Assembly (NCBI RefSeq): GCF_000227115.2
Contig: NC_016480.1
Coordinates: 1,485,476 to 1,549,475, forward strand
Direction: 5' to 3'
Origin: Naumovozyma dairenensis CBS 421
Taxonomy: Eukaryota; Ascomycota; Saccharomycetes; Saccharomycetales; Saccharomycetaceae
DNA length: 64,000 nucleotides
Below are positions 49,441 to 64,000 of the stretch, piece by piece. The notes beneath the pieces were generated by a model, which had not been told where the DNA came from, searched no databases, and was given only the letters and a program-made list of their open reading frames with translations. A program made the position numbers and the translations under genes. Every line of letters starts with the position of its first letter. Position 1 is the stretch's first letter.

Positions 49441-51154
49441 ATAGTTTTATTTAAGAATTAGTAAATCCAACTCCCGTAAAATATTAAAGCAAAAATATCT
49501 CATTATTTTTGTATATAAACATACGTAGTCTATTAGCTCATCTCTAAAAAGCTATGAATATAAGTTTTGATAATACCTCTTGCGACGGAATTGAGCTGAA
49601 TTTAGGAATATTTTTCCATTGTGTTGACCCAGTGTGTGATTTGAAATATCGATCACGGCGGTAGATAATATTATTGTTGCTTTTGAAAAAAATATAGGCA
49701 TTCAACTTTTTTTCAGTTCCGATTTCTAAACAAGATGAAGTTGATATGTAACACACAAACATGGTAATAGCCTCCAAAAATGCTTTTAGTAATGCGATAT
49801 TCGTTGAGTAACTTGGTTAAATTTCTTTGATCCAATTCCAAAATAATGCTATAAGCTGTGATAAAATGTCTGTCCATTCAGCTATAGTCATCTTTAGCAT
49901 AAAATTGGCTTTTGAAGGCAAAGATATATGAAAATTACTTTAACTGAATCTGATTTGCTTTGAAACTTGGACAATGTTTTCACTTCCAGTTTTGTTTTTG
50001 TTAAATCTCTCCAAGTGTATAACCTCTATTCTTCGGAAATGTTTCCTAATTAGTTCTCGCTTGCAAAGATTTTAAAAATGGCTCCTTTCCTTAACATTAT
50101 TGTAAACATCTGTATCAATTTCCGCTGATAATTTTAAATATATTGATTTCACAGACGCATATTCTAACAGGATTTTGGTGTCAGGTATCTTCAATTGCAA
50201 AGTATTTAAGCAAAGTATCTTGAAGAAAAACGAGCTACTGTGTGAAGCAACTTACTTAAATGCGAATATTGGATCTATTGGCTTAAGACCAATTAGTATA
50301 CTGATACTAAGTCTTAATCGTTTCTTCTTTCAACAGCCGTTTCTGTATATTCTTTTTTAGATGGTCTAGCGCCCACAGAGGTAATTTTTCTTCTCTGCTT
50401 TAAAAAAAACTCACTGTTCTTCACCAATACTGTTGATCTTGTTCTAATTTTTAAAAAAGAAGCCAAATAAACCTGTTGTTAATTTATTCCATTCAAAGTT
50501 AGAGTCTTCCTTCTTCAATTAAAAAGTGCGGATGCACTAGTATTCAAAGGCAGTAACAAAGTTTTGTTTATGCAGCCGATTAGAAGTGGATCTGAACAAT
50601 ATGTAAGAAAAATCCTCACTTATATACTTGTGAAATTTAACAGCACATTACCTCACATCGGGTTATACGACATGATTTAATAGGGGTATTAAATTCCAAC
50701 AAGGATCTCCAATATAGCTTCGTTAATCTACCAAACGAGTCTAAACAATAACTATTATACGTTATATTTTTCTACATCAACAAGTTAAAAAATTACAAGT
50801 TTGTTGAACTTTCAATTTCATATTCACTAAGAAATACTGAAGGTTATTTTTTTCGATTAATAAGAACTACTACTAATTTTCTTTTTTGAATATGACATGG
50901 CGCCGCTGAGTAAGGTCCGCTTAGTCAAGGGATACGCTTAGGTAACGCGGAGATACAAATAGCTTATGTAAATGATTTCTCAGCATTAATACACATTATT
51001 GAGTTAAACATCGAGGTTTGGTGCTGTATAAAAGCCACATTGGTTTCTATATTTATTCTATTTCTCTTGGTTTTCGTAGTTTATTATTTACGTTCTATAA
51101 AAATAACAAATATATCAATAATAAACACCACACCACTCTATCAAACTAAAAAAT
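49441..51154. other. Intergenic GTT1-like to GTO-like
   Basis: 1714 bp, AT-rich. I found no conserved ORF, RNA gene or repeat. The last 250 bp hold the promoter of the next gene. Confidence 0.45.
51027..51034 (+). promoter_or_regulatory. TATA box of GTO/ECM4-like gene
   Basis: TATAAAAG 121 bp upstream of the ATG. Confidence 0.5.
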
Positions 51155-52216
51155 ATGTCCACTACTGAAACTACCTTCTTCGAAGAAACTATTTCTAAAA
51201 CCCACCCAATATATAAGCCAGAGAAGGGCAGATATTGGTTATATTTATCTGCAGGCTGCCCATATGCTCAACGTATCTGGATCACAAGAGCATTGAAAAA
51301 TTTAACTGACGTTATTGGTGTCAGTGTTGTTCACTGGAAATTGGATGAGAAAACAGGTTGGAAGCTTTTGAATGCAGGAGAAACTAAATTAGGAGAAAAC
51401 GCCTTCAAGATTGATGGTGGTATCTTGAGCTCTCAGGATGACACCTCATCTCCCTTAGGTGATTTAGATGAGTCTAGTAGCAGATTATTCAAGGATGGCA
51501 CGTTTGACCCCCATTACGGCATCACACAAATTAAGGAATTATATGATATGACAGATAAACAGTATAAAGGTGAATTTTTGTGGCCTATTTTATGGGACTT
51601 GAAAACAAAAACCATTGTTAACAACAATTGGGACCAAATTCCTGCTATCTTAAACAGTGCTTTTAATGATTTTGATGAAACAAAGGGGACTGTTGACATT
51701 CTTCCAGAGCACTTATCATCCGATATTAAAAAGTATAATGAGTGGTTGTTTCCTCATATCAATGATGCTGTTTATAATGTCGGGTTGGCAGAAAAACAGT
51801 CAGTTTATGAAACGAATTTGCTTAACTTTTTTGAAGATATGGACAAAATTGAAAATAAATTGAGGGAAGTGCATGATACATTGGCCAAGGAATATGGTGC
51901 TTCAAATGGGGAAGAGATTCTGAAGAGATTCTTCCTGTTCGGTAACCAAATCACTGAAAGTGATATCAGACTATTCGTTACCATGATTCGATACGATTCG
52001 ATTTATGCAGTTCACTTCAAATTAAACTATAGACTGGTTAGAAGTGACTACTATTATATCCATTTATGGATGAGGAATTTATATTGGAATTATCCAGCAT
52101 TTGGCCAAACCACAAACTTTAACCACATTAAGCTCTTGTATACGCATGCAATGAGAAACATTAATCCAAACGGTATTGTCCCGTTAGGTCCTGAATATGA
52201 TATTTTGAAGTTATGA
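51155..52216 (+). CDS. Omega-class glutathione transferase (Gto/Ecm4 type)
   Basis: A glutathionyl-hydroquinone-reductase/omega glutathione transferase with a single active-site cysteine, Cys35 in LSAGCPYAQR. The 353 residues compare with about 356-370 for Gto1, Ecm4/Gto2 and Gto3. Conserved blocks are FEETISKTHPIYKPEKGRYW, VIGVSVVHWKLDEKTGW, PILWDLKTKTIVNNN, ITESDIRLFVTMIRYD, LHLWMRNLYWNY-like HLWMRNLYWNYPAFG and the end INPNGIVPLGP. The expected Pro-Trp/Phe after the Cys is Pro-Tyr. Which of the three paralogs it corresponds to I cannot tell. Isolated from its S. cerevisiae neighbours. Confidence 0.92.
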   Translation: MSTTETTFFEETISKTHPIYKPEKGRYWLYLSAGCPYAQRIWITRALKNLTDVIGVSVVHWKLDEKTGWKLLNAGETKLGENAFKIDGGILSSQDDTSSPLGDLDESSSRLFKDGTFDPHYGITQIKELYDMTDKQYKGEFLWPILWDLKTKTIVNNNWDQIPAILNSAFNDFDETKGTVDILPEHLSSDIKKYNEWLFPHINDAVYNVGLAEKQSVYETNLLNFFEDMDKIENKLREVHDTLAKEYGASNGEEILKRFFLFGNQITESDIRLFVTMIRYDSIYAVHFKLNYRLVRSDYYYIHLWMRNLYWNYPAFGQTTNFNHIKLLYTHAMRNINPNGIVPLGPEYDILKL

Positions 52217-53168
52217 AGTAGTGCCATAAATATGTAAAAAAGTTTATATCATCTAAGAAAAATACTCTTTCCTCTAGTAATAATGCCGAGGGAAGCTTTG
52301 CAAGTCAATTAATATCGTGTTTTTATAATGGGAAAATCGTTTAATGAGTTGAGTGGAAGTAACACTATCTCAAACTAAAGAAGGATTAAATCCAACTTGT
52401 GTCATGTCACCAGCACTTTGAAATAAATTACCATGAAACCAAAATGGTAACGTTAAATAGGGAATCGGTGAGATTATAATGTGAATATTGAAGCTTCACC
52501 TGTATTACATATGGCTTACAACGAGTAACAGTCAGAGGTAATAAATAGTCTAATCAACTCCCCAAATATATGTCATCTTATCTATAATGTCCCGTATATA
52601 GTAGTATAGAAGTACGTAATAAATGACCACTGGTCCCGCAGTGACAGTTTCGTGAAAGAATCAAGAAATTCGAAGAAACCATTTTTTTGGTAGGCACTAG
52701 ACGAGAATAGAAATTGTGACAGAAACAACGCAATGCTCAATCCGACATATTTTAATATAATTGAGGAATAACAAAGAATTCAATATATCTAGTCCTGTGC
52801 TACAGTTGAAAAGCTGTGTATGTTTTATGTTCCCAATAAAAGTTAGCTCCCCGGAAAGATTCGAACTTCTTAGTAAAAACCTTGTCAAGTGAATTTCAAT
52901 TTTACACAAGCACTAGAACACGTTATCCGCAAGCTCTGTAAAAAAAATCTATGAAACACCCAAATGGAAAATTAAAGTATATCGAGAGTGTCCTGAGATT
53001 CCACACTGGAAAAAAAATGAATAATCACTTTCTTGTAAACGATAAATTCGTAGATAATTATTCCTCTCCAGAACTGGTAGATTCATCAATAGGAATGATA
53101 CAATAATGTAACTATTGTAGGATTTTTAGTTCCATCACGTGAAGATGAAATCTGGGGCTTGAAAATAA
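52217..53168. other. Intergenic, GTO-like to pseudogene
   Basis: About 950 bp, AT-rich, no gene. A stretch at 52850-52875 resembles a tRNA T-arm but has no rest of a tRNA. Confidence 0.45.
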
Positions 53169-54234
53169 CTAGACTTCCTCTAGATATACACTTTCAGAGT
53201 AAGCAAAATTTGTATTCTCAAGTAGTTCAGAAAACGTTGAATATTTCAATTTATCACCCAACATGTATTTCATTTTCAACATAAAGTAAGCTTGGTAAGT
53301 TTGACGCTCCTCCTCTGTGACGTCTTCACAATGATCCACCTCCATATATTCTTGCTTAACATCGTTCCCATGCGGGGAAGGGATGACATATATATCATAT
53401 GGTGGGTCAAAAAGACACTCAAGACTTTATCCATCGTTGGTTTATAGCCGCGTCGGATTGCTCGAATTCTGCAAACAATTAACAAATCCCTGTATATTAT
53501 TGCATCCTCTGGAGAAAACCCATAAAAAACAAGACTTGAAGTGGAATGTTGGAATATCGAGAGGGCGGTAAAAATAAATCTTATCTGGTTTCATGGAGTT
53601 TTCAGATGCCTTATAGGATGCTTCATAGGAGTAGCCCTCATATTGAACATCTGTGTAAATATGTATGCGGCAGAGCAAGCTGTCCAGTTCTGGCTATTCA
53701 AAATCGAACTTTGTTTTCAATAATTCTTTACCTGGTTCTTCGATATTACAGGAATAAAAACCTTCTTCCTCAAAAAGGTATGGCCCCAAGACAAGCAGAG
53801 TGGGATTACCACCTTTTAACATCAACTTATGAAACGCAGCCTCTACGACAGTGCCAGGGAAGCTACGCCCTGTATCAGTTAAGAAATACTTCATGATACA
53901 CTCTTTGAAAATCCAATGTGACGAAGGCTCGTTATCCAGAGCAAAAGTGGTAGGTTCATCTAAAATCCAATTGTCTCCTTTCAGGGAATAAGAGTTTGGA
54001 GCCGGTGTATTGTTATTAGAGAAATAGTTTGAAAGGAATCACCAAATATTAGTTTTTCTTCTTGAGTCCTGAAATGGTCTTCTTAACTTCAATCCATTGA
54101 CAGTGACAAATTCCATGGTAAAGCGTTTTTGCTTGCATTTGTTCCTGTGTCAGCTTCTGATTGGGACATATATCAGCTTGAAAGAATCTTAATAATGGCT
54201 CTAGTTATGGATGCCAACCTTGGTTCTGTTCCAT
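53169..54234 (-). pseudogene. Broken protein-coding gene, family not recognised
   Basis: Minus-strand coding-like sequence in several frames from an ATG at 54234 to a TAG at 53169-53171. Readable pieces are: LEPLLRFFQADICPNQ near 54190-54150; GRSFPGTVVEAAFHKLML near 53860-53800, ending in a TAG after KTKFDFE; YTDVQYEGYSYEASYKASE near 53670-53610; and the C-terminal DVTEEERQTYQAYFMLKMKY near 53320-53260, ending SVYLEEV. At least two in-frame stops and several frame changes separate them. Composition and a common strand suggest one former gene of about 350 codons. I do not know the family. Alternatively these are two adjacent remnants. Confidence 0.6.
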
Positions 54235-56717
54235 TGTTGATGATTGACGACGTTCATGTGATGAAAGTTTTATCTGTCTATGTTAAATTTTGGAACATGA
54301 TCCATCGATCGGCTGTGGGAATGGTAAAACGCGGAAGACTTGTGAATATCCGCGTAAGGCACTGTGCTTCAACGACAAAAGGAAAAAGGAATCGCTGTAT
54401 ACAGTACTATACTATACAATGCAGTCTATAGTATTCCTGAGAGAATATAGGTCAAATACCTTTATCTGATATGCCATATCTATCACCTTGATCAGATTGC
54501 CCTATTGGATTTTTTAACTCACCTTCAATTCTTAACTGCCTGTATCGCCAACAATTAGCCATTTGTGTATCACATTCCACTTTAAGGATCCACAAGTTAA
54601 ACAACCGTGCTACCTTCTATTCCAATATAATTGTGTTCATGTTTGTTCCTCTATTTCTAAATTCAATTTGATTATTGATATCGGCTTATTTCTTGCCCAT
54701 TTCACTTCCTATTGTTAGGCTTAAGTTTTGACGAAGTTAGTCAAATAATTACAATGATAAATGCAACAGATATTAATTCCTGGCAATTACAGAAGGTACT
54801 GCTGGTCCTAACCCCTCTCCTTTCCGCTTTCTTGATAAAGAAGTAATATTTACCAAAGCCAAAAAGAAACCTTCATCTTTCGTTGATTGTTCGGAAAATT
54901 ATAAGTAGAAGCATCAGGGAAGCACAACAGATCCACTTCATTAGTGGTACCGCATTACCTCACTACTACGATGAGTGCTCAATTCACCATATATTGTCCA
55001 TTACAACTCAGAAGGCGTTTCAGCAGAAAAATCCTTTCTTACGAGACGTAGAGACCCATATATACCTGCATTACTGGCCAATGCCAGGAATATAAAATAT
55101 AGAAGCAGTTACCTTACAAACTATAATGATTAGAAACCAAAGTACACGCTTCCTGTATCCTTCAAACGGCTCCCAAAACCAAAGTGACCTAAATACCACT
55201 TCTGGAATTAATGTAAACAGCATACAGATTTTGTTTCTTTTCCTGAATCCAACACACACATTACTCGAATATGGAAACTGTTGAACACCTTTATTCATTT
55301 GGAACAACAGTCCTGGCTAAATCCTTAATACTACTATTTTTAGTTGAGAAACTATCAGTTGAAAATTAAATAAGCTCTTGTGATACTTTCTTCCAAGGTA
55401 AGGTAAGCCCCAGTGCACCTAATGTAATAGCGTCTGAGCAAAAACCGAGCATATCGTTAATGGGTGTGACAATTGGTACAGAAAACATTTGGGAAATTAT
55501 TAAAATTCCATGAAAAAAAGCCCTACGTGACTTTTCTTGAATACCACATTTCGCTACTTGTTGGTTTTACTATAGTACGTAAGTAAATATCAGGAGCAAG
55601 TTCCATATATGAAGACCTGTTAAATGATCGGGAGATTTTATTCAAGGACGACTAATAGACATTCAAAAGTAAAGAAGTATTTCTTTAATCAATGTTTCCT
55701 TTCGTGAATCGTAAAATTATCCAATATTTGCTATTACTCCACTTAAATTTATATTTACACTTCCAGAAATAATAGATGATAATTTATAATATTTTGATAG
55801 CCAGTTTTTATATTTACGTATTATAATAAACAAAGTTAAGGCGTCAGTTTTTGGATAAGAAATAAATACTATTTTCACCCCATATGTAGTCTAGCTAGTG
55901 AGCAATGATGTTAGTTGCTCGCTGTTGATGACCCTACACGATCTTATCCGTCCTTTGTAAATATAACTGAAACTAGGGATAGTGACAGACGCTGAAACAT
56001 TTAAGATTAGATTTTTAAAGTTACTGATGATATTAAATATATTGTTAAATTAAAGTCATTGCCATTGATGTAGAATATTGATGTTTTAGTCGTTGTTAGG
56101 TTGTGCTCAGCTATTCATATCGCCAGTCAGGAGCAAAGTGTAGACCAATTATCGGGACATAACTTATGCTAGATTTTTTCAAAAGTAAACAAAAATTCCC
56201 AAAATATACGTTAAAAGCGATAATATTTGAGGACCTACAGACCTCCTTTATTTTAATTTTCTTTTTTTTACCGCGAGTTTCGGCAGCAGAAGTCCAAAGA
56301 AACACAGGGAGCTGAGTCGCGAAGCGGCTCAGCGACCCCATACTAATTCTCGATTTTTCTGAAATCCTACTTTTTCAACATTGTCATCCCTCAGGCGAAA
56401 ATTTGAAGATCGTCGGGGGGCGTCAAACTCCGCCCTACGCGGTTTCCTCGACGAAATGTTTTTATTTTTTAATATTTATTTTATTTTTTTCGCGTCTGAT
56501 CGATTGAGGGACGCTACTTAAGTTTAGCCGCCGAACTCCAAAAAACAACAACAGAAAAATGTAAGATCCGAAAATCTACATATAAACAACATCTAAACAA
56601 AACACATTTCCACCTACATACTTTCTTACTCTCTTTTAGGAACAAAATATATGATCCAAAAGTGAACGTTAAGGAATAATAACTTAGATAAAGATTATAT
56701 AAGAAAGAAAAAAAAAA
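54235..56717. other. Gene-poor subtelomere-like region
   Basis: About 2.5 kb with no conserved ORF. A minus-strand frame at 55071-55307 contains one hydrophobic stretch (VLWFLIIIVCKVTASIFYI) and might be a transporter remnant. The last 450 bp change to GC-rich sequence with hairpins before the large gene at 56718. Confidence 0.45.
56311..56333. repeat. GC-rich inverted repeat upstream of the recombinase-like gene
   Basis: GCTGAGTCGC-GAA-GCGGCTCAGC: 10-bp arms with one G:T type mismatch and a 3-nt loop. It is followed at 56408-56460 by a second GC-rich patch with GGGCG and CGCCC as short inverted arms. Both stand out in AT-rich surroundings. Confidence 0.75.
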
Positions 56718-59700
56718 ATGGAAGTAATTGAAATCGACAAAAACCATTGGGTTATTGATAATTTTCTGGTGGAAGAAAATGATGGTGTAAAGCGTATAAG
56801 ACATTTTACAGGAACGAATAAGACCATGCCGCAATATACTATAGATAAGTTAAAACTAATGAATACAATCAACCTCAAAGAATTAAAAGATGCATATCCA
56901 TATACTTCCCTCATTCCATGTCAGTCAAAACTACTTTTTGCTCATGTGCAAACATTTACCTATGAATTCTACCGTAAAGGAGAGGGATTTCATAAAGTTA
57001 ATGCTAGAACGGCTAAAATTTTTAGAAATATTAGCTCTCCTTTCACTGTTATTCCTCTCATATTGAAAGGATGTCCCGTTAAATATTTATATTACCAAAA
57101 TAACTTACTACAAACAAATGTTATCCCTCCTGCTTTTAATAGGATTATTCATTCACACAATAGCTCTTTTTTTGTAAGGACACTTTGTTTAGAAAACATT
57201 AAATTAAAGACTTCTGACATAAAAATATTGTTAGATTATCAAGCTGTTAAATTAATCTATCAAAATCGATCAGTAGGGATGGCTACTCGTATATACAAAG
57301 ATGTCAGAGAAGAATACAAAGAAAGGCCATTTATACAATCAATGATTTCACTAGTTACCAAAATAGCATTCCCACCACAATATAGATCAACAACTCTTTC
57401 CCAATATGCTAGAACTTTTGCCTTCACCCTTTACCTTATCGATAATTTCAGAAAATTTAGTTTTGCAACCCCACGAATTTGTAACAATCTTCCAATACCT
57501 TTATTTAATATTGAATCTACAATTGAAGAAAGAACGGAAAAATATAGCGATTTTTTTTGTTATCTCTATGATTCAAAAGATAAAGCATTAGCCTGTATCA
57601 ATATCTTATTTAGAGTGATGGCATTTGATTGGAATCGCTCCATGGAAACTAAGTTTGAAGTGAAAACATTGAACCACTTTAAATCCACAATGGATGCTTT
57701 TAAAGCTATTTCCATTTACCTTTGTCTTCATAGACATATTCACCCCACATACAAATATAGTAACACAGACAAATATTTTATCACTGATTGCAGCACTGTA
57801 TGGGATTGGATTAAAAGGACTTATTCAATGTTAATGAATGATTATCACACTACAAAAGTTATTTCAAAACCTTGTGCTCCGGATGGTTACCTTATTGGTG
57901 GTTTAAGATTCTCAAGACAGTATATTCAGATATTTTATCAAGACATAATTAATAGGTATGATTCAAATTTAGAAGTCATTAAAAAATCTTACTTAAATGT
58001 ACAAGCACCTTCAGTAATGGGAAGAAAGTTGTTGGGTACACAGGGGTTATGTTTGGAGGAAGATAGAGCTAATCATAAAGGTTCTTTAGTCAATTTGTTT
58101 CCCATGGAGTTGATTTCCAAATTTCTTCCTTACCTTTCAACTGCTCAAATAGTAGAAGAAGAAGCTAAACAAGAAATTAAATCTGCAATCGATGATATGG
58201 GTGTTTCCTTGATGTGGTTAATATACTTCTCAACTGGTGGTCCGTACAGGTTTCCAGATTTACAAATTTTAAAGTATGCAGGCAATGAAAGAAATATCTT
58301 TTTTGATGCAACTGTGAAGTGTATTGAGTTGGACACAACATATTCCAAATCCAGGTTTTCTAAACGTCTGTGCAAGGTCGTGGATCAACACACCACATTC
58401 TATTTGGTTCATTATATTTTAGTTTGTAGGTCTCTCCTCAATAATATACTCGGAGATTTCTATGCTGAGATTAACAGAGATTTATTTGCTAGTGGAAGGA
58501 AACCGAATTCAGTCGCCGATGATGAACGTAACAACGTAGAGAGCAAAAATTCAATGGGGAATGTCGATGAAGACGAAGACGAAGAAGAAAGCAATCAACT
58601 TTTTGATGAGGAAGAAGACGCTGAAGAAGACGCTGATGAAAATAAAGATGATATTATTGTTCCACCTATTAATATCTTCAATGAAGGGAAGAATCTTACT
58701 GATCTGGATTACTCTCGTCAGATTTTACATTCCACTTTGTTTATTGATATTAATACGAATAAAATAGTTCATTACGAGAGATTCAAGAAATTTATATCTC
58801 AATATCCTTCATCATGGGAGGGCAAAAGATTGACATTTAGGGATATGCGTCATGGTATGATAGGTTTACTCAGGGAGTATGTAGCTAGTGGCTATAATGA
58901 ACGGTTTGAATTATCTAAGGAAGAATATGCAGGCCATGATGCAAATACAGGATATACTGATTATGCTGTCAACCCATATAAAGCAAGACATACTCCAATT
59001 AGCAAAAGATCTGAAGTATTGAGTAAATTATGGCAAGAATGGTTAGGTTTAAGAACGTATCATGAGAAAAAGACATTCACACCATTGCATAGAACCAAAG
59101 AACCAAAATTATCATCCCTCACTCAATCTCTTTACGATATTTCATACGTGAAAACTTCATTCTTCTATGACTCTCGATGCTTACCAGAACAGGAGAATAT
59201 GATGTTATTAGATATATACATGGGACAGGCGAAATTACATCCAATTCAGATTTCTCCCAATGATGATGCTTTTAACTTGTATAAGTTGCCAATTTATGCC
59301 CTTTCCGAAGTTGCTTCAAACAAGAACCAAATCTCTTTCATATTTGAACCAACCCTGAGTGCAAAAATTTTGACATTGCAGAGACTCTCCGAAATAAAAT
59401 CGTCGTTAAAAGTTGGTGATTTTGATTCTATTGTAAATATAAAGACTGGCCCTGAAGAGCATGACTTTACATGTTCCATCTATGTTGGTACTTTCGAAAA
59501 TTTAATGGAGTGTAGTTTTTGTGATTTGATACACAAATGGGATGAAACAATGGTGAACCTGTCTTTGTGTTATGTGGTCATTAATTGCTTTGAAAAAGTA
59601 AATCAGAATCTTTTCAAAGATTTAAATATCGGTTCCTTAAAGTGGTTCTTTAAAATATTGCTATTCACAAAGATTGATGCGCGTCAGCAAACTAAAACGT

Positions 59701-60368
59701 TGATGAAAAATATAGGGATATTCAAACCCTTAATATCGGTAAAGCGCATTGACATATCGGAGTGTATATATTACCACAATTTGTTGAAAGAGCTGCCATT
59801 GAAAGACGTTTATAAAGAATTGTGGAAAGAGGAATCTGGCTATGGTACGTTACAGAAATGTTGCTCTTATTCTAAACGATACTTGCAATTATTTAATTCT
59901 AGGACAAATAAGAAAATTGTGATTATTTCAAAGCAAGCTGATGCAGCTGATGCTTTGCATGCCATGTTAGGAGATATATCGATTAAAATTACTGAAAAAA
60001 TTGACATAAGAGAGAGGTTTAGGTTAATGGATAATTTCAGAGAGCAATCGAATTCCAAAATTTTGATTGGAACAAAAGTGTTGCTTGATTTTCCGAATGT
60101 TGAAAATGTTGCCCTAGTCTTATTAATGGATTATATGCGAACTATTTCAGATTACATTACCTTCTCCTCTATGATAACAAAAGAAAACGGCATAATCAGT
60201 TCCATTTTTTGCGAAGGATCATTTGAAAAAGATTCCATGACATTGGATTGTCCAACAAACCAGATAAGAAAATTTTATGGAATTTCTGAAACCCAGCCCT
60301 GCAATTGTTGTAACAACTCCAATGAACGGGTGAGGGAATTGCTAATTGAAGTCCATGGCGATGATTGA
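56718..60368 (+). CDS. Tyrosine-recombinase-like domain fused to degenerate RecQ-like helicase
   Basis: A 1216-aa protein without an S. cerevisiae relative that I know. Residues 480-600 and 690-760 resemble the tyrosine-recombinase part of fungal telomere-linked helicases: FSTGGPYRFPDLQIL (Arg511), TYSKSRF (Lys544), then after a long acidic insert (about 615-650) TFRDMRHGM (Arg708, Arg711, His712) and AGHDANTGYTDYAV (His740, Tyr749 as candidate nucleophile). The C-terminal third follows the order of SF2 helicase motifs but without their key residues: FIFEPT with no Walker A, VVINCFEKV where DExH is expected, then KIVIISKQADAADAL, ILIGTKVLLDFPNVENV and SDYITFSSM without motif VI arginines. A CNCC cluster is near the end. 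It lies near a probable chromosome end. The assignment is by eye. Confidence 0.6.
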   Translation: MEVIEIDKNHWVIDNFLVEENDGVKRIRHFTGTNKTMPQYTIDKLKLMNTINLKELKDAYPYTSLIPCQSKLLFAHVQTFTYEFYRKGEGFHKVNARTAKIFRNISSPFTVIPLILKGCPVKYLYYQNNLLQTNVIPPAFNRIIHSHNSSFFVRTLCLENIKLKTSDIKILLDYQAVKLIYQNRSVGMATRIYKDVREEYKERPFIQSMISLVTKIAFPPQYRSTTLSQYARTFAFTLYLIDNFRKFSFATPRICNNLPIPLFNIESTIEERTEKYSDFFCYLYDSKDKALACINILFRVMAFDWNRSMETKFEVKTLNHFKSTMDAFKAISIYLCLHRHIHPTYKYSNTDKYFITDCSTVWDWIKRTYSMLMNDYHTTKVISKPCAPDGYLIGGLRFSRQYIQIFYQDIINRYDSNLEVIKKSYLNVQAPSVMGRKLLGTQGLCLEEDRANHKGSLVNLFPMELISKFLPYLSTAQIVEEEAKQEIKSAIDDMGVSLMWLIYFSTGGPYRFPDLQILKYAGNERNIFFDATVKCIELDTTYSKSRFSKRLCKVVDQHTTFYLVHYILVCRSLLNNILGDFYAEINRDLFASGRKPNSVADDERNNVESKNSMGNVDEDEDEEESNQLFDEEEDAEEDADENKDDIIVPPINIFNEGKNLTDLDYSRQILHSTLFIDINTNKIVHYERFKKFISQYPSSWEGKRLTFRDMRHGMIGLLREYVASGYNERFELSKEEYAGHDANTGYTDYAVNPYKARHTPISKRSEVLSKLWQEWLGLRTYHEKKTFTPLHRTKEPKLSSLTQSLYDISYVKTSFFYDSRCLPEQENMMLLDIYMGQAKLHPIQISPNDDAFNLYKLPIYALSEVASNKNQISFIFEPTLSAKILTLQRLSEIKSSLKVGDFDSIVNIKTGPEEHDFTCSIYVGTFENLMECSFCDLIHKWDETMVNLSLCYVVINCFEKVNQNLFKDLNIGSLKWFFKILLFTKIDARQQTKTLMKNIGIFKPLISVKRIDISECIYYHNLLKELPLKDVYKELWKEESGYGTLQKCCSYSKRYLQLFNSRTNKKIVIISKQADAADALHAMLGDISIKITEKIDIRERFRLMDNFREQSNSKILIGTKVLLDFPNVENVALVLLMDYMRTISDYITFSSMITKENGIISSIFCEGSFEKDSMTLDCPTNQIRKFYGISETQPCNCCNNSNERVRELLIEVHGDD

Positions 60369-61140
60369 ATTGAGATGATGAATTATTCTGGTAGCATGTT
60401 CTATTATTTTTTCTAAGTTTTTATTACACATTTGATATTTTAACTATTATTTGACGATCATAAAATTATATTATACAGGATATTTAATTTACTATAAAGG
60501 CTATTTAAATCGTACACATATACTATAAAGGTTAACTAATTATATTTTTAATAGCGTACACCGAAAATCAAAAGTTTATAAACGTTCGGAAGACGGCTCT
60601 AATTTTGTAATTAATTCATAAATTTTTCCTTCCGTATGAAAAAGTAGTTGTGAAGACTTTGTTGGTTCAGTAACAGTTTCCAAACGATCAAGGAAGGAGG
60701 CTGGATTTAGTGGTGCTATGTATTATTTATATTTAAAAGGATGTTAAGAGTGTTTAGTTTTATTATGTGTTTTATTTGATACATTCATAGTAAGTGTAGA
60801 TTTATATTGGTATTATCTTTGGACTTAGCCGCCCAGCTCTCACTGATTAAATCTTGGAATTGTCAATAAGTGATGTATATATGTATAGTAATGGGAGTTG
60901 TTTCTACACTATCATGATCAGAATTTAATGTAGATTAACATACTTGAGTACCAAATATATATAGTTGAGATTGAAGAGCTGAGAGACGATTTCTGGAATT
61001 ACCGTTTTTTGTTTAATTTACGTTGTCAATATATAGTATTTTTGTTAAGTTGTAACATTTATAAAATAAAATATATTTAATATTAAAAATAAACTAATTT
61101 CTGCCATTTTTCATATATCTTTTCACAAATAGTTAGTTAT
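60369..61140. other. Intergenic downstream of the recombinase-like gene
   Basis: AT-rich, no ORF. It leads into the tandem duplication; I could not align it convincingly with the repeat units. Confidence 0.4.
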
Positions 61141-62376
61141 GATATTGTGGATATATTTATTATCAAAGGTATAGATTAATATACAACTATAAAAAATATA
61201 CGTCCTTCTCTTAGGAATAGAGTTGGCATGAGTACTACAGAACTATGTATAGTCTGGCTATCTCATTGAATAATATTGTTTTTCCTGAGTATTGTCCATT
61301 TAAGTTACTAATTTAATTTTGTATTATCACATAGTATAGTATCCTTTAATGTAAAGGAATGGTTCACCAAATATCAATTTTTCGAATTTTGTCAGAATTA
61401 ATACCACCAATAACTCGATGAAAATACTTGGTAGTTTGATAGTAATTATTTTAATATGTTCGATTGTATTGGTATTTCGTCATTATTGGTCATAACATGG
61501 TCAATGTGGATGGTAGTTCAGAAGTTAAGGTCTCATTATGTTGTCTATAATTATGCTCATCTTTTGTTATAATATGGTTAATCCACCATGCTTGGTTTGT
61601 CATATACCGTTGTTGAAGTTGTCAATTTTTGTTATATATTAAAAACAGCCAAAACCATGTCAATATTGTTACTAGTTTAGAAGTTAAGGTCTGATTATCT
61701 TGTATCAATTGGTTATTGTCTTATGTTTTAGTGTAGTTTGTTCCTGGTCACTATTCTTGAAATATCAAAATTTGTTATTTTATGTCCCAGCCGAATAGAC
61801 AGATGACTGTGGAAGTTGCAAACAAAGAGCTTGGTTTGTAATCACTACTTCAATTTGTAGGGGGATATTGCGTAGTATCACGATATAGAGTATCAGTTTC
61901 TGGATGTTTGAATTGGTTGAGGAGTTCATGGTGGAGAGTAATAGGGGCTAGAAAAAGTGTCGATTACTCCGATTTACCACACACGCAGTTTCCAACTTGG
62001 AAATACCGCAACTATATTTCCTGAATGCCCGTGGTTTACTCTCTCTGATTAGCCCTTAATTAATATAGTTGGAATGTTTATTGAGCATTCTCACTTTTTA
62101 TAGTGCATTACCATCATTGGATGTAAGTCCGTCAGGTTTTCATATGTGGAAAAGTTATCAGTATATATGGATAGCCCGGTTCGAGTAGACCAGATTTCCT
62201 TGTATTAATCTTTCATTTGCTTTTATTCTGTTTGTTTTGTCTCTGTCTGTAGTTGTTAATAGCTGTACTATATGTTTGTATGTGTTCACGTTAAAATTGT
62301 TATCAAATGTATATGTTGTATAGAAGTAATAACAGAAGATATAAAATGACTTCCTTTGAGAGACATGCGAGTATAA
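61141..62376. repeat. Diverged ~1.25-kb tandem repeat, unit A
   Basis: Shares ordered blocks with unit B: AACTATAAAAAATATAC at 61185, TTTTAATATGTTC near 61451, a block around GCGTAGTATCACGATATAGAG near 61870, TTGAGCATTCTCACT at 62081, and TCTGTTTGTTTTGTCT near 62228. No long ORF; a stop-rich noncoding repeat. Confidence 0.8.
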
Positions 62377-63540
62377 TACTCTGGATATATATATATTATC
62401 AGATCTGTAGTATATTACAAAACTATAAAAAATATACCTCCTCCTTTATATTTATAGTGGTGTTAATACTTGTAGTAGGTATATCTGCAGATGATTATAT
62501 TATTCAATGTTAAGATGTCTTAAATTACTGTTCTTTTTTATTGTCATAGGGTAGAGCATCATATAATATAGAAAGTTTGATCACCAAATGTCTATATTTC
62601 ATTATTTGTTGTCAATAGCAATACCAAAAACTCGACCAATTTGGTAATAGTATCAAAGTAGCTGTTTTAATATGTTCATTTATATTGGCATTCCATTATA
62701 GCATTCTATGGTTCATCAATCATGTATAGTCGTTCACTTCTAAGTGTGTCAGAGTACGCCAATTTTTAATCATTTATGAGTGTAGCATGTCCAGTATGCA
62801 TGTTAGTCGATATGTTAAGATTTCAATGTGTTGTTAATGAATATGTTTATATGTTGGTATATTATAGAGAACCCATTATCTTAGTCTGTCATGTATTATC
62901 GTTGATATTTTTATTCTTTGCCACCTGTGAAATATGGTAATAGGCTTGTCACTATTGATGCTAGTGTAGCAGTTAAAGCTTGGTTATGCTGTATTATGTA
63001 GCTATTATCTGCTGTTCTTATACGCTTAGTTAATGGGCCATGGGTATTTGCATATTATATTTCGAAATTATTATGTCTCACCAATAATGATGCATGGCTG
63101 AGGTGCCAATATAGAGTTTTATTTTGAGGGACTACTTCATTCGCTAGAGAATACTGCGTAGTATAACGATGCACAGTATCAGCTCCTGAATGTTTGAATT
63201 TAGTCGAAGATTGATTCGTGGCTTATCACGGGCCTAATGAAAACTAGTAAATGTTCCTACTTACCACAAACGCAGCTTTAATATTGGGGATTCCATAGTT
63301 ATATTTTCTGGGTGTCTGTAAATTACTCTCTATAATGAGCCTTTGATGTCTTTGGAGTTTGTCTTATTGAGCATTCTCACTGTTCATAGTGCATTGATAT
63401 GGCAGTTTCAAAATCTGTCATTTTTCAATATTTCCAAAAGTTATTAGTATTGGTGGATAACCCAGTTCATGTAGAGCAGCTCTCCATGTCTTAAAGTTTC
63501 ACTTGTGTCTGTTTTGTTTGTTTGTCTTAGTCTGTGTATC
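62377..63540. repeat. Diverged ~1.25-kb tandem repeat, unit B
   Basis: The matching blocks are at 62421, near 62672, near 63150, at 63367 and near 63508. The offset to unit A grows from 1236 to 1286 bp, so indels have accumulated. Identity is patchy, perhaps 60-75% by eye. Confidence 0.8.
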
Positions 63541-63661: not shown

Positions 63662-63726
63662 GACCTTCTTAAGGGCTGAAGTATATCAGGGTATTTGGTT
63701 TAAACCCTACTTTATGCTTTTATGAC

Positions 63727-63950
63727 CCAGGGTACTGTGTATTAGGGGTAGGTAGCATAACCCTCTCTAGTTGGTTTTAACCTAGGGTATTATGTAGTAG
63801 GGTTATCCTCTTTAGCCCTATCTAATTGTATCATACCTAGGGCAGGGGGATTAGGGATATCCTACTTAGCCCTATTTAATAGTTCTTTAACCTAGGGTTT
63901 TATGTAGTAGGGCTATAACGTCCAACCCTAAGAATCCATCAGAATTTATA
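63727..63950. repeat. ~55-bp GGG/CCC-rich degenerate tandem repeat
   Basis: Four units starting at about 63727, 63781, 63836 and 63891, spaced 54-55 bp. The common pattern is CCTAGGGT, then TAGTAGGG or TTAGGG about 14 bp on, then AGCCCTA about 15 bp later. A weaker unit may precede at about 63686. It looks like a subtelomeric satellite with telomere-like TAGGG/CCCTA words, but it is not a canonical telomere repeat. Confidence 0.75.
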
Positions 63951-64000
63951 GGGTTAGTTTCATAAAACCGATTATACCGAGCGGCTATTTTCATATCCTA

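Follow-up and report, generated by a model that had tools for sequence, protein, structure and literature searches.

We analyzed a stretch of 64,000 nucleotides of Naumovozyma dairenensis CBS 421, here called the window, which is the right end of contig C2 (positions 1485476-1549475 of 1549475) in a 13.5-Mb genome of 11 contigs. It carries an element that we consider fairly probable to be a mobile element of the type of Y' elements and telomere-linked helicases (TLHs), in which one protein joins a Sir1 module binding the origin recognition complex (ORC), a tyrosine-recombinase module and a RecQ-type helicase module. A link to the Y' elements of Saccharomyces cerevisiae is presumed. Judged by its sequence, the window copy belongs to a helicase-dead lineage which is still under purifying selection. 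Its open reading frame (ORF) of 1216 amino acids runs from ATG to stop without an internal stop codon. A preliminary description of this DNA had recognized the intact frame, the recombinase-like region and a helicase lacking Walker A, DExH and the motif VI arginines, and had named R511, K544, R708, R711, H712, H740 and Y749 as recombinase residues. The frame and both domains were confirmed, the codons of all seven residues lie at the places it gave, and its reading of a domesticated or mobile subtelomeric recombinase is supported, but the N-terminal Sir1 domain had been overlooked and membership of a dispersed N. dairenensis family had been missed. The features of the coding region are as follows.

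56718..60368, + strand: intact 1216-codon ORF, composed of Sir1 domain, helical region, tyrosine-recombinase-like domain and inactive helicase of the superfamily 2 (SF2)/RecQ type
56733..57092, + strand: Sir1 ORC-binding (OIR) domain, residues 6-125 (Pfam)
57858..58976, + strand: region like a tyrosine-recombinase catalytic domain, residues about 381-753
58248..58250, + strand: R511, Arg I of the recombinase set, kept in 15 of 16 aligned members (codon checked)
58347..58349, + strand: K544, beta Lys, kept in 15/16, between two strands in the predicted model
58839..58853, + strand: RDMRH with R708 (His II position; Arg in 14/16), R711 (Arg II; 16/16) and H712 (His in 8/16)
58935..58937, + strand: H740, His III, kept in 15/16
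58962..58964, + strand: Y749, candidate nucleophile nine residues past H740, kept in 15/16, the remaining one being a gap
59028..60365, + strand: helicase-like part (residues 771-1216) that lacks Walker A, DExH and the motif VI arginines (alignment to active-looking paralogs; Pfam Helicase_C)
59259..59273, + strand: NDDAF in place of Walker A GYGKT, residues 848-852 (paralog alignment)
59583..59594, + strand: NCFE in place of DEFH, residues 956-959 (paralog alignment)

The catalytic-domain fold of tyrosine recombinases was present in two predicted structures. From these models we infer that the window protein has this fold, and strand cleavage by Tyr749 is predicted. A homolog search with residues 470-1130 of a paralog from contig C11 (lineage A, see below) gave 14 proteins, the named ones coming from N. 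dairenensis, S. cerevisiae strain AKH_1a, Huiozyma naganishii, Lachancea thermotolerans and Torulaspora globosa. Twelve of them (all except P0005 and P0007) were aligned with the window protein and three more N. dairenensis sequences. In these 16 rows the set of Arg I, beta Lys, Arg II, His III and Tyr (R511, K544, R711, H740, Y749) was kept in 15, 15, 16, 15 and 15 members, respectively, and all five positions rank in the top 24 among 954 scored columns (p about 6.5e-9), with the general conservation inflated because the rows are related. A search of viral contigs returned no relatives, and the best match among viral structures had an E value of 0.6 and was of no use. The homolog labelled S. 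cerevisiae AKH_1a (P0006) is 45% identical to the lineage A paralog over the searched region, has a decayed recombinase site and was possibly introgressed; it is a relative that need not be a Y' protein.

The Sir1 domain was detected well above threshold (E 2.9e-32, 112.1 bits versus a cut-off of 24; Pfam), and at least 24 stretches of the genome match it. Sir1 and helicase domains occur together in 8 of the 14 homologs according to precomputed Pfam annotation. Six homologs were rescanned, and the combination was present in five (P0011-P0015) and absent from one (P0016); the helicase part of P0014 matches RecQ. An ORC-binding domain, predicted here from sequence, is thus common to the window protein and the Sir1/KOS silencing proteins, which differ from it in standing alone, whereas the window protein is fused to recombinase-like and helicase-like parts. 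Separate Sir1/KOS-type genes also exist in N. dairenensis, for example with three Sir1 stretches on C10; copies without a helicase lie on C10, C4 and C8, and in the C10 gene, the one scanned, no helicase domain was found. Such stand-alone genes were located at L028 5076-6926, L027 3947-5800 and L022 1626-3215, with two or three Sir1-like stretches each. A tree of Sir1 domains gave no direction of descent between element and Sir1, as it had long branches and only 3 of 17 inner branches were well supported. A sequence comparison of the domain with the PDB returned nothing relevant.

The C-terminal part is an SF2/RecQ-type helicase and aligns end to end with paralogs whose helicase looks active. 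Compared with the C11 paralog, PGYGKT of Walker A has become PNDDAF, VIDEFHN has become VINCFEK and QTAGRLRQGG has become TFSSMITKENG, while Pfam still recognized Helicase_C at residues 1056-1147, with a score (23.5 bits, E 7.1e-5) just equal to the curated cut-off. Identical losses were observed in a second intact copy at the left end of contig C3 (NDAI_0C00100 of N. dairenensis CBS 421, 89% identity) and in two decayed internal copies of the same lineage. Therefore, the dead helicase is old and common to the lineage and does not reflect a fault of one copy. In the other frames examined, from lineages A and B, Walker A (GYGKT or GFGKT; GFGET in the C9 copy), DEFH and AGRLR are retained unless the contig ends before motif VI.

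Between the two intact copies, which differ by a synonymous divergence (dS) of 0.16, the ratio of nonsynonymous to synonymous rates (dN/dS) was 0.35 overall (Fisher p 7e-16), a value obtained from a single pair of copies in which some stretches look converted, so that it speaks less firmly for our interpretation. By region, residues 136-450 gave a ratio of 0.25 and the helicase part one of 0.30 (p 2e-7); the ratio of 0.67 obtained for the Sir1 domain was not significant (p 0.11). The DNA of residues about 406-760 and 1014-1216 is almost identical between the copies, which suggests gene conversion. Because these stretches overlap the recombinase, its dN/dS (12 differences in residues 451-770) says little. 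For this pair of copies, the earlier suggestion that the intact frame reflects selection was borne out as purifying selection on the lineage.

The window protein has at least 49 matching stretches in the N. dairenensis genome, which fall into three element lineages: W (the window, the C3 left end and fragments), A (the C11 left end, 1571 aa) and B (C11, C9 and others). A copy or a left end was found at 11 or more of the 22 contig ends, and the main copy points outwards at all 11. Further element loci are internal, on C1, C2 and C7.

Element copies begin at fixed left ends. In the window the following features precede the coding region.

56303..56717, + strand: element left end CACAGGGAGCTGAG... 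and 5' leader; the preceding base 56302 is A, the same end occurs elsewhere on C6 and at C2:113.3 kb, and the empty site reads AAA^CAAAAC
56311..56333, + strand: near-palindrome GCTGAGTCGCGAAGCGGCTCAGC, 8 bases inside the left end, a candidate protein-binding site judged by sequence

Three subfamilies have such a fixed end, namely B2 at six, W at four and W' at three sites. The B2 end (CACCTTTCTGCCTCC...) has six genome matches at six sites, which lie inside B1 twice (C2:105.5 kb and C9R, where L and R denote left and right contig ends), inside W or W' three times (C2:112.8 kb, C3R, C5R) and in an X-like block once (C4L). The W end (CACCGGGAGCC...) was found on C3 (same flank at both ends), on C6 inside W', at C5R and at C6R, and the W' end is that of the window type. 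The base before the left end is A at 13 of 13 sites. Alignment recovered the uninterrupted target for ten sites, nine of which read A^CA and one (Wc) A^CG. With an ACA frequency of 0.018 in the window, the binomial p for A^CA among the targets is 2e-15, an optimistic value because the motif was noticed after looking, which tempers its weight for our interpretation. The B1 left end was kept out of the site counts, as its two copies share one upstream block; W'c (filler bases), We (no empty copy found) and Wd (15 matching bases only, reading A^CA) were not used as empty sites. The target of B2c was read from W copies of 98-99% identity, and the more distant window copy reads otherwise there. Left ends and recovered targets have no more than four bases in common. 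The near-palindrome in the window consists of GCTGAGTCGC-GAA-GCGGCTCAGC, and the W subfamily carries a different near-palindrome at the equivalent place.

At these sites, the W and W' copies other than the full-length ones are truncated, either ahead of the coding part or within it. Both subfamilies spread though both full-length copies are helicase-dead, and therefore helicase activity would have been supplied in trans or was not needed. A tyrosine-recombinase mobile element homing to chromosome ends is the simplest account of the fused Sir1, recombinase and helicase modules, the conserved catalytic set and the fixed ends at ACA. In the mechanism that we propose, the Sir1 module would anchor the protein through ORC at origins or silencers of the subtelomeres, and Tyr749 would attack DNA at the element end and at ACA. 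Strand exchange could then insert the element from a circle or another excised form, or cap a chromosome end. The helicase of the A and B lineages may open DNA for insertion or for copying; the W lineage may use helicase activity in trans or keep its helicase part as a scaffold.

Several findings weigh against a mobile element with its own recombinase. At two of the ends, C2R and C3L, there are small decayed fragments that are directed inwards. Position II carries an arginine (708) where His or Lys is expected, and catalytic residues are lost in two of the 16 aligned members, the Lachancea protein P0013, with Ala for Arg and Gln for Lys, and P0006, with Asn for His and a gap at Tyr. Pfam searches of ten members matched no recombinase or integrase profile, although sequence methods may be too weak here, and hmmsearch found no recombinase, FLP included, among PDB sequences. 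Foldseek by itself returned no recombinase among 44 matches of the window model (best E 2.7) and none among the best 50 matches listed for P0014. A right end, a target duplication and a distal half of the target were searched for and not found, so that the element may have arrived by insertion or by end-capture. In S. cerevisiae, Y' elements are generally regarded as repeats amplified by homologous recombination. Y' circles, which fit our interpretation, exist in that yeast, as passages of PMC7430651 state with reference to Horowitz and Haber 1985, although for the origin of the circles these passages lean to homologous recombination.

Part of this evidence would suit a relic recombinase fold that is kept for DNA binding, as in domesticated Crypton genes. 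The protein would then be an ORC-linked structural factor of subtelomeric chromatin, spread only by homologous or break-induced recombination between ends, an explanation that we regard as unlikely while giving it some weight. Besides the two members with lost catalytic residues, the Sir1 domain points to chromatin work, Crypton-derived genes are described in a part of PMC3212892 as transcriptional regulators and chromatin factors, and the blocks at 50599-55124 and 52563-56302 of the window recur at other chromosome ends and are plainly shared by recombination. However, Lys and Tyr are among the most conserved columns and would not be needed for DNA binding alone, and left ends fixed at six, four and three sites with so little sequence in common with their targets are unlike homologous recombination. 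We consider it similarly improbable that chromosome ends with a break at ACA were repaired without any part for the recombinase, either through microhomology-mediated copying of free element DNA with one defined end or through its capture. Joints and targets do have C to CACC in common, the distal target half was found at none of the six B2 sites, and all six B2 copies are oriented as the element or block they entered. Yet at C3R, C4L, C5R and C9R the absence of this half carries no information, as the element runs up to the end of the contig, and the same holds for C2:105-113 kb, where a gap separates two adjoining copies; moreover, random repair would not reuse one element end six times or give A^CA in nine of ten targets. 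That the gene is a decaying former helicase, held open by chance and gene conversion, is very improbable. The lost helicase motifs, the two decayed copies and the converted-looking stretches would fit such decay, but the two full-length frames and their substitution ratios, in the helicase part in particular, argue against it.

Two further candidates were rejected. Joining mediated by telomere repeats is not supported, as neither TCTGGGTG nor TGTGGGTG occurs on either strand within 500 bases of 14 left junctions, contig ends permitting; TCTGGGTG is the repeat of N. castellii, as given in a passage of PMC12408736, and may not be that of N. dairenensis. No telomere repeats were seen in the contig ends that were read. 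A 97-bp repeat flanking an internal B element (C2:343.8 and 349.7 kb) was dropped as a target duplication since it has 15 genome matches and is tRNA-gene-like. This element (L016) thus lies between near-identical tRNA-gene-like sequences at C2:343799-343895 and 349658-349753, by integration near tRNA genes or by chance. At C2:105.4-113.4 kb (L014/L015), two B2 elements stand face to face across 20 N (about 109150-109169) with X-like blocks outside, which could be an end-to-end fusion of chromosomes or a scaffolding error in a repeat.

Among known systems, Y'/Yrf1 of S. cerevisiae is closest in being subtelomeric and multi-copy with a coding strand directed towards the telomere and a helicase with an N-terminal Sir1 domain, Yrf1 being a Sir1-domain helicase. 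The window copy differs in its helicase, which is predicted from sequence to be inactive, while the sibling lineages A and B keep the motifs. A presumed Yrf1 segment is 52% identical to P0012 over 274 residues with R, K, R, R, H and Y at the same places; we treat this as a lead and not as a test. No paper linking a tyrosine recombinase to Y' or TLHs was found among the openly licensed PubMed Central papers listed by the searches, which is weak evidence that the link is new. TLHs of filamentous fungi and fission yeast are likewise helicase genes located at the ends of chromosomes. P0016, a distant homolog that we guess to be a TLH, combines helicase domains with a recombinase region that terminates in GHSTTTADMQYG, and it lacks a Sir1 domain. 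TLHs are treated as host helicases in sections of a 2025 paper (PMC12857005), from whose main text the word "recombinase" is absent, and as a RecQ helicase gene family in a passage of PMC4522978.

Cryptons share with the window element a tyrosine recombinase without transposase or reverse transcriptase and a short repeat common with the target, given as 4 bp in a portion of PMC7175516. The Crypton markers DUF3504 and GCR1_C did not match the window protein in a Pfam scan to E 10. In a Crypton survey (PMC3212892), the main text of which lacks the word "helicase", one passage places all eukaryotic tyrosine recombinases then known in mobile elements and names 2-micron plasmids, Tec, DIRS/Ngaro/VIPER and Cryptons, a list without Y'. 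FLP of the 2-micron plasmid differs in partners and setting and has no sequence match to the window protein.

It is possible, and we suggest it tentatively, that Y' elements and fungal TLHs as a whole are tyrosine-recombinase DNA transposons, which would dock to ORC via a Sir1-type domain in the yeast branch, insert at ACA and move as circles. Their own helicase would be dispensable for spread, as the window copy would illustrate, and the ORC-docking part would be shared with Sir1-type silencing proteins. Y'-type telomere repeats may therefore carry their own transposition enzyme, and the conserved recombinase domain offers a testable enzyme for Y' circles and for jumps between ends. It could also represent a selfish element tied to the ORC/Sir silencing machinery. 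Such a selfish element fits the small interfering RNAs of Naumovozyma castellii, which map mostly to transposable elements and Y' elements as stated in part of PMC5499181.

The flanks of the window element contain further traces of the family, as listed here.

50087..50278, - strand: inward-pointing, decayed piece of a related element, covering residues 136-198
52563..56302, strand not assigned: X-like subtelomeric block, shared in pieces with other ends and internal sites (main pieces 77-97% identical)
60369..60652, + strand: 3' part of the W' element, homologous to two internal copies as far as 60652
60674..60764, + strand: C-terminal coding tail, preserved as a remnant, of a second element, which is of lineage B (matched by blastn to C2:348537-348631 and C9)
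60674..63200, + strand: 3' flank of a B-lineage element, ~2.5 kb, 92% identical to C9:1-2588

An intact glutathione-transferase-like ORF, which we take to be ECM4-like, lies at 51155-52216 in a subtelomeric block of which full or partial copies also accompany elements at C6, C2:445 kb and C2:1006 kb. The 3' flank at 61138-63535 contains two non-coding tandem repeat units ~1.2-1.3 kb apart with ~66% identical pieces and kin in C9 and C11. Near the contig end, at 63700-64000, we observed many short TAGGG/CCCTA motifs, which presumably resemble subtelomeric Tbf1-type sites.

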